DNA from: Marinifilum sp. D737
GTDB lineage: Bacteria; Bacteroidota; Bacteroidia; Bacteroidales; Marinifilaceae
NCBI RefSeq assembly: GCF_026672275.1
Contig: NZ_JANQCD010000021.1
Coordinates: 1 to 64,000, forward strand
Reading direction: 5' to 3'
Length of the DNA stretch: 64,000 bases
In this document: piece after piece, positions 54,348 to 56,127 of the stretch
Layout: each line of letters starts with the position of its first letter
Numbering within the stretch: position 1 is the first letter of the stretch
Program-made: the position numbers and the translations under genes
Notes under the pieces: model-generated
Seen by the model: the letters and a program-made list of their open reading frames with translations, nothing else
What the model was told of the DNA's origin: nothing
Database searches by the model: none

Positions 54348-54539
54348 TTAGTCAATTTTTACATTAACTGCATTTAATCCTTTTTTTCCTTCTACAACAT
54401 CGTAAGTTACGTTATCACCTTGATCAACTTTATCAATCAAACCTGTAACATGAACAAAAATGTCTTCTTGTGTTTCATTGTTTTTAATAAAACCAAAACC
54501 TTTGGTTTCATTAAAGAATTTTACTGTACCTGTAGGCAT
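54348..54539 (-). CDS. csp: Cold-shock domain protein
   Basis: 63 aa, ATG 54539. Complete cold-shock OB fold: MPTGTVKFFNETKGFGFI (RNP1 KGFGFI) and EDIFVHVTGL (RNP2-like), then NVTYDVVEGKKGLNAVNVKI. An RNA chaperone that melts mRNA secondary structure; whether it is cold-induced is unknown. An inverted repeat in the 5' UTR (54561-54581) could form a regulatory stem. It is the only gene between the men operon and asnA. Confidence 0.93.
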   Translation of the reverse strand: MPTGTVKFFNETKGFGFIKNNETQEDIFVHVTGLIDKVDQGDNVTYDVVEGKKGLNAVNVKID

Positions 54540-54742: not shown

Positions 54743-54774
54743 TTTTGGTAGTTTAAATTTTAATCCTACATTTG
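54743..54774 (+). promoter_or_regulatory. Promoter of the asnA leader transcript
   Basis: TTTTG (54743-54747), 19-nt spacer, TACATTTG (54767-54774): both elements and the spacing match the Bacteroidota vegetative promoter. Transcription would start near 54780, just upstream of the first leader ORF. Confidence 0.75.
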
Positions 54775-54794
54775 TAAGCAAGAAAGACAAGGAA

Positions 54795-54869
54795 ATGAGA
54801 CAATTCAACAACAATAATAATCTTTTCAATAATTTGATGAATAATTCATCAGAAGTGGGAAGGCTATAG
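54795..54869 (+). CDS. Asparagine-rich leader peptide 1 of asnA attenuator
   Basis: 24 codons plus TAG (54867-54869), preceded by AAGGAA as ribosome-binding site directly at the ATG. Nine of 24 residues are Asn: a block of five (54807-54821, AAC AAC AAT AAT AAT), two pairs (54828-54833; 54840-54845). The peptide starts MRQFNNNNNLF and ends SSEVGRL. Its last codons contain TGGGAAGGCT, the antiterminator strand. Design and position are those of a classical amino-acid-operon leader peptide that senses charged tRNA-Asn. Confidence 0.88.
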   Translation: MRQFNNNNNLFNNLMNNSSEVGRL

Positions 54870-54905
54870 TTGTTATCGAAAAAATATTTTACACGAGCCT
54901 TCCCA
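54856..54905 (+). promoter_or_regulatory. Antiterminator pairing, attenuator 1
   Basis: TGGGAAGGCT at 54856-54865 (end of leader ORF 1) is identical to the terminator's 3' arm and is perfectly complementary to AGCCTTCCCA at 54896-54905, the terminator's 5' arm. A ribosome stalled on the Asn codons leaves 54856-54865 free to pair and block the terminator. A ribosome reaching the stop codon covers it. Confidence 0.85.
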
Positions 54906-54923
54906 AATTGGGAAGGCTTTTTT
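54896..54923 (+). terminator. Terminator of attenuator 1
   Basis: AGCCTTCCCA (54896-54905), loop AAT, TGGGAAGGCT (54909-54918), T-run to 54923. Perfect 10-bp stem, 27 nt after the leader stop. Confidence 0.92.
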
Positions 54924-54934
54924 ATTTATATCAA

Positions 54935-54991
54935 ATGGTACAATTTTTCAACAACAATAATAATAACACTAATAATTCTCCCCCAAGGTGA
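54935..54991 (+). CDS. Asparagine-rich leader peptide 2 of asnA attenuator
   Basis: 18 codons plus TGA (54989-54991), starting 11 nt after the first terminator. Eight of 18 residues are Asn: six in a row (54950-54967) and a pair (54971-54976). It begins MVQFFNNNNNN and ends NNSPPR. It shares the stretch CAACAACAATAATAAT with leader 1, pointing to duplication. No clear Shine-Dalgarno; an AT-rich unstructured start is normal in this phylum. Confidence 0.85.
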   Translation: MVQFFNNNNNNTNNSPPR

Positions 54992-55032
54992 GGAAGTAGC
55001 ATTGTTATACCATATTACAAGCCTTTCTCACC
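54987..55032 (+). promoter_or_regulatory. Antiterminator pairing, attenuator 2
   Basis: GGTGAGGAAG (54987-54996), spanning the leader-2 stop codon, pairs with CTTTCTCACC (55023-55032) over 10 bp with one G-U. This disrupts the second terminator's 5' arm. The geometry is the same as attenuator 1, but the sequence is different. Confidence 0.8.
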
Positions 55033-55050
55033 ACAGAGAAAGGCTTTTTT
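55019..55050 (+). terminator. Terminator of attenuator 2
   Basis: AAGCCTTTCTC (55019-55029), loop ACCACA, GAGAAAGGCTT (55036-55046), T-run to 55050. It lies 40 nt before the asnA ATG, so no coding sequence separates it from asnA. Confidence 0.92.
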
Positions 55051-55089
55051 ATTATCAACTTATTTCTATTAATTAAAATTTTAAAAATC

Positions 55090-56127
55090 ATGAAAAACTT
55101 AATTATTCCTAAGGCTTACAAAAGCATCTTATGTCCTGATGCAACTGAAAAAGCAATTAAATTTATTAAAGATCAGTTTCAACTACAGCTCTCTTCGGAA
55201 CTGAAACTACGTAGAGTAACTGCACCTATGATTGTTCTAAAAGGTACTGGTTTAAACGATGATTTGAACGGAATTGAACGCCCTGTAGCATTTCCAATTA
55301 AAGGACTGGGAGAACAAACTGCAGAAGTTGTACATTCTTTGGCAAAATGGAAAAGATACATGCTTGGCGAACTTCAAATCCCTGAAGGTAAAGGACTTTA
55401 TACCGACATGAACGCCCTTCGCCCTGACGAAGATTTTACCAACCTTCACTCCATTTATGTGGATCAATGGGATTGGGAAAAATCAATCAGTAAAGAAGAA
55501 CGAAGCATTGATTTTCTAGTGAAAACTGTAAAGCAGGTTTATGCATCAATTAAAAGAACAGAATACATTTTAAGTGAATATTACCCGGCATTAAGCCCTC
55601 AATTGCCGGAAAAAATTACTTTTATTCACTCTGAAGAATTATTGGAAAAGTATCCTGATTTAAGTCCAAAAGAAAGAGAAACTGAAGCTGTAAAAGAGTT
55701 TGGCGCAATCTTTATCATTGGTATTGGAGGTGAATTGAAAAACGGTGAACCACATGATGGTCGCGCCCCTGACTATGACGATTGGACTACTCCATCGGTT
55801 AACGGATACAAAGGCTTAAACGGAGATATTATTCTTTGGAACCCTGTTCTTGAACAAGCTTTCGAGATATCATCAATGGGAATTCGTGTAGACGAAAAAG
55901 CATTGTTGGAGCAACTTGAGATTAAGGGAGAAGAAAAGCGAAAAGAACTAATGTTCCACAAAAAATTATTGTCTGGAGAATTACCTTACTCTGTTGGTGG
56001 AGGAATTGGTCAATCGAGATTGTGCATGTTCTTATTGCGCAAAGCACACATTGGAGAAGTCCAATCGAGTATCTGGCCAGATGAACTGAGAGACACTTGT
56101 AAAAAAGCAGGAATTATTTTCTTGTAA
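55090..56127 (+). CDS. asnA: Aspartate-ammonia ligase (asparagine synthetase A)
   Basis: 345 aa, ATG 55090. Makes asparagine from aspartate, ammonia and ATP via aspartyl-AMP; the fold is related to class II aspartyl-tRNA synthetase. Diagnostic segments: LKGTGLNDDLNGIERPVAFPI, EVVHSLAKWKR, GLYTDMNALRPDEDFTNLHSIYVDQWDWE, RAPDYDDWTTP...GLNGDIILWNP and SVGGGIGQSRLCMFLLRKAHIGEVQSSIWP. Regulated, by all appearances, by the two consecutive Asn-codon attenuators upstream. Single-gene transcript ending at the 56150 terminator. Confidence 0.96.
   Translation: MKNLIIPKAYKSILCPDATEKAIKFIKDQFQLQLSSELKLRRVTAPMIVLKGTGLNDDLNGIERPVAFPIKGLGEQTAEVVHSLAKWKRYMLGELQIPEGKGLYTDMNALRPDEDFTNLHSIYVDQWDWEKSISKEERSIDFLVKTVKQVYASIKRTEYILSEYYPALSPQLPEKITFIHSEELLEKYPDLSPKERETEAVKEFGAIFIIGIGGELKNGEPHDGRAPDYDDWTTPSVNGYKGLNGDIILWNPVLEQAFEISSMGIRVDEKALLEQLEIKGEEKRKELMFHKKLLSGELPYSVGGGIGQSRLCMFLLRKAHIGEVQSSIWPDELRDTCKKAGIIFL

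Follow-up and report, generated by a model that had tools for sequence, protein, structure and literature searches.

Two asparagine-rich leader units in series, putative ribosome-mediated attenuators, precede asnA in Marinifilum and related Bacteroidota

What are two short, asparagine-rich open reading frames (ORFs), each followed by a terminator, doing in front of a gene for asparagine synthesis? The question is raised by a 64,000-nucleotide stretch of Marinifilum sp. D737 (Bacteroidota), positions 1 to 64,000 of the forward strand of contig NZ_JANQCD010000021.1, assembly GCF_026672275.1, which we call the window. It carries asnA, which encodes aspartate-ammonia ligase (55090-56127, plus strand; Pfam AsnA, PF03590, E value 1.6e-103); similar plasmid genes carry the annotation asnA. 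As judged from comparative sequence analysis, the leader of this gene very probably holds two ribosome-mediated asparagine (Asn) attenuators in series, which would form an AND gate on asnA. We favor the two-step gate because the tandem Asn-rich ORFs and their terminators are conserved in relatives.

All elements of the leader lie on the plus strand. A promoter-like site of the Bacteroidota type spans 54743-54774 (TTTTG at 54743-54747, a 19-base spacer, and TACATTTG at 54767-54774). It is followed by leader ORF 1 (54795-54869), which encodes MRQFNNNNNLFNNLMNNSSEVGRL with 9 Asn codons out of 24, and by terminator 1, whose strands 3 and 4 and U tract cover 54895-54925 (stem 54895-54919; hairpin energy, -16.5 kcal/mol). 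The second unit repeats this order, with leader ORF 2 (54935-54991; MVQFFNNNNNNTNNSPPR, 8 Asn codons out of 18) and terminator 2 with its U tract (55019-55052; stem 55019-55046; -16.1 kcal/mol). The end of each ORF carries strand 2, the 5' strand of a putative antiterminator. In unit 1 this is TGGGAAGGCT (54856-54865), just before the stop codon and complementary without mismatch to AGCCTTCCCA at 54896-54905; in unit 2 it is GGTGAGGAAG (54987-54996), which overlaps the stop codon and is complementary, with one G-U pair, to CTTTCTCACC at 55023-55032. The duplexes of strand 2 with strand 3 are predicted at -19.7 kcal/mol and at -17.4 to -17.8 kcal/mol, respectively. A preliminary description of this DNA had listed the promoter site, Asn counts, terminators, and complementary strands, and its coordinates agree with ours to the base.

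Could such a layout arise by chance? The terminators might be plain premature terminators without regulation, with Asn codons supplied by AT-rich DNA, in which AAT and AAC are frequent; the tandem loci of the window's family have a GC content of 34%. We give this account very little credence. None of 1,000 dinucleotide shuffles of 54743-55089 yielded an ATG-initiated ORF with at least 8 Asn codons at a density of at least 30%, and the best ORF reached at least 8 Asn codons at any density in 2 of the 1,000. ORFs 1 and 2 are also the sole matches on either strand of the window to a simple description (ATG start, 10 to 60 amino acids, at least 7 Asn, at least 30% Asn). Between 54300 and 55400, four terminator-like sites were found, terminators 1 and 2 among them, where shuffles led us to expect 0.4.

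The same layout is found well beyond this genome. In the window's family (f1), asnA was matched in 29 of 56 genomes, one of the 29 being a fragment; wider scans matched it in 23 of 395 genomes of the class, 159 of 393 of the order (loci were fetched for the best 30 places only), and 21 of 395 of the phylum. Three further families gave matches in 5 of 46, 1 of 36, and 46 of 150 genomes, and we added 15 extra stretches as well as the best 80 named loci among the matches listed of one further scan, so that 214 asnA upstream regions were read. Asn-leader units number 94, in 69 of these regions, 25 of which are tandem and 44 single. The tandem loci come from the window's family (21 loci: L001 and L004-L023), family f40 (L042, L197, and L198), and family f28 (L047); the single units are those of L024-L028 in f1, L041 in f9, L046 in f47 (a weak case), and 37 loci in f56. 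The f56 loci average 57% GC, which argues against Asn codons that merely reflect AT-rich DNA. No unit was found in the other 145 regions, including L002 and L003 of f1, nine f56 loci (L201-L209), and all of the best 80 named loci, 3 of which have less than 350 bases upstream. The preliminary description had tied its claim to the conservation of the Asn runs in close relatives, and they are indeed kept, with both units in 21 of the 29 asnA-bearing genomes of the window's family and one unit in 5. The tandem arrangement is thus a trait of several genera, not of a single genome.

The distribution follows the phylogeny of the enzyme. In an AsnA protein tree of 118 rows, all 54 unit-bearing rows fall within one subtree of 62 rows (SH-aLRT of 94, not starred), made up of 29 rows with a single unit, 25 with tandem units, and 8 with none. 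The three states require 6 changes on the tree, compared to 47.5 with shuffled labels, and this clustering is a further point against terminators without regulation. For the tandem state alone, 3 changes are needed, just 1 of them forced by starred branches. Most simply, the units would have been gained once with this AsnA lineage and then lost or transferred.

Are both units part of one transcript? We scanned 31 upstream regions for a TAnnTTTG box, which we take to be the Bacteroidota promoter consensus (TTAG and TTCG were allowed as endings), and found one starting 24 to 33 bases before the leader 1 ATG in 24 of them; in the window, the box starts 28 bases before that ATG. Five of the seven regions without a box belong to the window's genus, in which an upstream in-frame ATG was taken as the leader start, so the box lay outside the scan; L027 and L041 make up the rest. 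The stretch that separates the two units is free of TAnnTTTG boxes at all 25 tandem loci, so both units should be on one transcript, unless a promoter of another type lies between them. Sigma-70-type sites show no excess between 54300 and 55400 (7, with 5.6 expected), in a scan whose model excludes the Bacteroidota type.

Further evidence comes from the pairing of strand 2 with strand 3, which is mutually exclusive with the terminator pairing of strand 3 with strand 4. Every one of the 94 units has a 2:3 duplex at or below -8.6 kcal/mol, with a mean of -15.4 kcal/mol, compared to -11.8 kcal/mol when strand 2 is paired with strand 3 of other groups; the cognate duplex beats the mean noncognate one in 87 of the 94. 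Relative to dinucleotide shuffles of the strand 2 region, the duplex is better at a P value of ≤0.05 in 87 of 94 units and ≤0.01 in 59, and relative to simple shuffles in 90 and 78, respectively. This complementarity also argues against plain terminators. Strand sequences vary by lineage yet match within a unit: unit 1 of the window pairs GGGAAGGCT with AGCCTTCCC, while L047 pairs GAGAGGCT with AGCCTCTC in unit 1 and GGCGA with TCGCC in unit 2. Within the 25 tandem loci, own-unit duplexes average -13.8 kcal/mol (unit 1) and -15.6 kcal/mol (unit 2), and cross-unit duplexes are weaker, at -9.8 and -7.7 kcal/mol. To mimic a ribosome stalled at the last Asn codon, we cut away the RNA through base 13 of a count that begins with that codon's first base; the minimum-energy fold of the remainder then had six or more 2:3 pairs in 84 of 93 units.

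By analogy with established trp and his attenuation, we infer the following course of events. A ribosome would translate each leader ORF behind RNA polymerase and so read the supply of charged tRNA-Asn. With Asn-tRNA plentiful, it would reach the end of the ORF and cover strand 2, leaving the 3:4 terminator to form; with Asn-tRNA scarce, it would stall at the Asn codons, and the free strand 2 would pair with strand 3 and allow read-through. Unit 1 could, in addition, form a long 1:2 hairpin whose strand 1 consists of the Asn codons plus the Leu-Phe codons that follow, and a ribosome sitting on the Asn codons would melt it. If this hairpin forms before strand 3 exists, termination would be favored without a translating ribosome, as in trp and his. 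Since asnA would be transcribed only past both gates, the two read-through probabilities should multiply, which would give a tighter shut-off in the presence of asparagine and a steeper response.

The two units differ in how well the 1:2 hairpin is developed. In unit 1 of the window it spans 54823-54862, with 54823-54827 paired to 54858-54862 and an apical stem of 54833-54839 with 54847-54853 inside ORF 1 (RNAalifold). The predicted hairpin reaches into the Asn codons, where AACAAC pairs with GTTGTT at and after the stop codon, and the fold of 54795-54894 has a z score of -3.49, with none of 200 dinucleotide shuffles as stable. Among relatives, 98.3% of 240 alignment cells in this hairpin are paired, and 6 cells are changed on both sides (reached by 2 of 500 shuffles); no shuffle out of 500 attains its covariation score, which is also higher than in all slid versions. 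Two other counts do not clearly surpass shuffles: pairs changed on both sides, matched or exceeded in 69 of 500, and pair types, in 73 of 500. Mean z scores for the unit 1 region are -2.5, -2.9, and -3.7 in the tandem families f1, f40, and f28, and for single units -2.0 (f1), -2.9 (f56), and -3.6 (f9). In the folds that we inspected from other lineages (L024, L025, L042, L197, L198, L047, and L048), the apical stem sits in the same place with other sequences, and the Asn codons and following bases pair around strand 2. In unit 2, the hairpin spans 54976-54994 (54976-54983 with 54987-54994) and joins the last codons to strand 2; 98.6% of 140 cells are paired, partly as G-U, and no covariation beyond shuffles was found. 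Pro-Pro in leader 2 was a candidate stalling motif that we set aside: SPP or PP recurs, but PT, PL, PS, and RP also occur. We take these bases as strand 1 RNA because RNA pairs are kept there, partly as G-U. As for the terminators, no pair of terminator 1 is changed on both sides among relatives; in terminator 2, 95% of 200 cells are paired and 3 are changed on both sides, a number matched in 9 of 500 shuffles, and 1 shuffle of the 500 attains its covariation score.

Several observations weigh against two working attenuators of this kind. The first concern pairing. At the 0.05 level, the 2:3 duplex fails to surpass dinucleotide shuffles in seven of the 94 units (L012 unit 1, L042 unit 2, L046, L009 unit 2, L028, L020 unit 2, and L025), and an earlier test on a fixed segment at the ORF end reached a P value of ≤0.05 in 74 of 91 units, with many of the misses being leaders whose ORF continues past strand 2. 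Strand 2 of f40 unit 1, f47, and f56 pairs better on average with strand 3 of some other group. The preliminary description had looked to comparative folding for covariation of both antiterminators; the strands proved conserved and mostly matched within units, and covariation within the family was absent (0 cells in unit 1 and 1 in unit 2, not beyond shuffles), because strands 2 and 3 hardly vary there. The mean z score of the unit 2 1:2 region is -0.8, +0.4, and +0.2 in the three tandem families, not clearly beyond shuffles. Thus, the full trp/his-type layout that had been claimed for both units holds for unit 1, with its stable 1:2 hairpin and four strands; the 1:2 hairpin of unit 2 is only weak. 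Before strand 4 is made, 2:3 is predicted to be lower in energy than 1:2 in most units of both types; in f1 this holds for 20 of 21 and 18 of 21 units, by means of 3.7 and 5.5 kcal/mol, and in unit 1 of the window by 4.4 kcal/mol (-24.5 versus -20.1). Static energies therefore imply that a ribosome-free leader would read through, so that the outcome for an untranslated leader would depend on the order and kinetics of folding. Other points concern the leaders and their genes. Where single bases differ at Asn codons in pairwise comparisons, Asn is kept in 25 of 74 cases in leader 1 and 51 of 115 in leader 2, so conservation of individual Asn positions is not strict. The second leader of L011 (genome G038) has a longer C run than its relatives and stays open beyond the usual stop, as far as the terminator arm, which may be a sequence error, as this draft genome is 80% complete, or a real change; the second units of L009 and L011 were missed in the first automatic terminator search. 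Finally, the window's genome also contains asnB, so asnA is not its sole route to asparagine.

It is tempting to see the difference between the units as design. If so, unit 1, with a strong 1:2 hairpin built partly from its Asn codons, would terminate unless a ribosome is stalled on Asn, and unit 2, which almost lacks a 1:2 hairpin, would read through unless a ribosome reaches its stop codon. Such a two-key gate would open only for a real shortage of Asn-tRNA and stay shut when translation fails in general, with a switch-like response from multiplied ratios. This requires the unit 1 hairpin to form before strand 3, because static energies favor 2:3, and we lowered our estimate for the same reason. 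That the units are unlike by design, in a device that three families of Bacteroidia have retained or evolved anew, is doubtful, and we offer it as a tentative suggestion.

Alternatively, only unit 1, the widespread type, might be regulatory. Unit 2 would then be a copy, decaying or specific to certain lineages, whose main effect is constitutive, partial termination. Unit 1 alone has the stable, covarying 1:2 hairpin, and its position and layout resemble those of single units elsewhere; the weak 1:2 region of unit 2 and the odd second units of L009 and L011 fit as well. However, unit 2 has kept its Asn codons (6 to 9 per leader in 21 loci), has on average the stronger antiterminator of the two in the tandem loci, and is part of a two-unit layout that occurs in three families. 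We consider it improbable that unit 1 works alone, and we retain the series of two attenuators.

Is the device specific to asnA? A covariance model of unit 2, searched against the 56 genomes of the window's family (Infernal, stricter filters), matched in 23 of them. It hit 32 places at an E value of ≤0.1, all upstream of asnA by coordinates: unit 2 of asnA, more weakly unit 1, or the single unit of genomes G045 and G016. The weak matches to unit 1 (36 to 44 bits) fit a kinship of the two units. No Asn leader precedes asnB in 29 readable loci of 30; the asnB of the window's genome has only 339 bases upstream. It may be that asnA serves as the ammonia-dependent route to asparagine that is controlled by demand. 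A leader RNA that senses asparagine or tRNA-Asn directly, as a riboswitch or T-box, would show much the same two-strand switching, and T-boxes serve amino acid genes in this way in Firmicutes; the Asn-rich ORFs would then be incidental. Nonetheless, a search of the window and of 18 f56 loci yielded no Rfam family at its gathering score, T-box included, Asn-rich ORFs are common to the units of different families, and the apical stems of the units inspected differ in sequence. Moreover, the position of strand 2, at the ORF end, is where a ribosome would sit. Direct sensing is thus highly improbable.

A last possibility bypasses the terminators: the small proteins made from the two ORFs might themselves be functional, or the ORFs might work through re-initiation or Rho polarity. 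Leader ORFs may increase translation of the next gene by re-initiation, as the passage on them in PMC4833913 states. In our case, 98 bases, including a terminator, separate ORF 2 from asnA, and the peptides are of low complexity and variable length. Of all the alternatives, we find this the hardest to believe, and ribosome-mediated attenuation in two steps remains our preferred explanation.

How does this device compare to known systems? Like the attenuators of the trp/his/leu type (E. coli trpL and hisL), as schematized in PMC3641672, it has a small ORF in the leader, with a run of end-product codons, a biosynthesis gene downstream, and an antiterminator 2:3 that competes with an intrinsic terminator 3:4, along with a 1:2 hairpin in unit 1. 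It differs in sensing asparagine, in its Bacteroidota host, in placing strand 2 at the ORF end, and in being doubled for one signal. In the passages of PMC3641672 that treat it, the Salmonella mgtCBR operon likewise has two leader ORFs (mgtM and mgtP) and two serial attenuation steps; its signals differ (ATP and proline), its steps are independent and additive, and its stem-loops are unlike intrinsic terminators. The asnA leaders are both Asn-rich, each with an intrinsic terminator, and would be a tandem attenuator of another kind. Two cis switches with two intrinsic terminators also precede metE in B. clausii (cited in PMC3641672), but these are riboswitches that bind two different metabolites (S-adenosylmethionine and vitamin B12) and involve no ribosome. 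The rimP-leader of several Gammaproteobacteria (PMC2965389) has a further terminator upstream, accompanied by a potential antiterminator, and the passage describing it mentions no leader peptide with control codons. In Bacteroidota, the main text of a study of Flavobacterium psychrophilum (PMC9723704) reports "strong clues" of leader-peptide attenuation before amino acid operons and does not contain asn or asparagine; likewise, the main text of PMC7366714, on short ORFs in long 5' untranslated regions of Bacteroides thetaiotaomicron, mentions neither asnA nor asparagine. Among the matches listed in our search of the open literature by title and abstract opening, to which subscription papers are mostly external, we found no description of an Asn attenuator on asnA.

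If the two units do work in series, leader-peptide attenuation would extend to asparagine and asnA in Bacteroidota. To our knowledge, amino acid attenuators are normally single; a conserved pair that reads one amino acid would provide a direct measure of what is gained from serial sensors in leak, steepness, and timing, and the 94 natural units, with known relatives, are material for such comparisons.

Some further observations concern asnA leaders more broadly. After the ORF 2 stop codon, ATTGTTAT at 55001-55008 is complementary to the Asn codons ATAACAAT, and 13 of the 20 f1 rows in the alignment have it; it is a possible extra clamp between the spacer and the Asn codons. In the asnA locus L161, from another class of the phylum and not counted among the 69, an Asn-rich ORF (NANLNSNLNLNANNN) is accompanied by a terminator and an antiterminator of -23.4 kcal/mol (0 of 200 shuffles as good), with a different leader that is possibly of independent origin. 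Other Asn-rich ORFs that fit a simple criterion were left uncounted, at L057 (no terminator detected), at L053, L076, and L159 (TTG start), and at L125 (550 to 592 bases upstream).

In 20 loci of f56 (L210-L244), about 165 bases of other RNA occupy the place of unit 2, between the Asn terminator and the asnA ATG (for example, L221:2236-2398 and L219:2236-2399, both on the minus strand). This element starts with TGTGCC or TATGCC, mostly ends with GTGTGCC or GCGTGCC and a T run, and contains a covarying hairpin like ACTCCC..GGGAG, in which 3 of 5 pairs are changed on both sides. It is possibly a different second switch on asnA. Its middle strand pairs with either end better than shuffles in just 9 and 7 of 19 loci, which lends weak support to a two-strand switch. 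In another f56 genus (L226, L229-L233, L235, and L238), the same gap holds a hairpin of CCGAAAAAAC..GTTTTTTCGG, then bases like GCCTTGCC, and this hairpin is unlike the element of the neighboring genus. Lastly, a minus-strand ORF of 63 amino acids at 54348-54539 diverges from the asnA leader in the window; from its sequence, we presume that it encodes a cold-shock-like protein.

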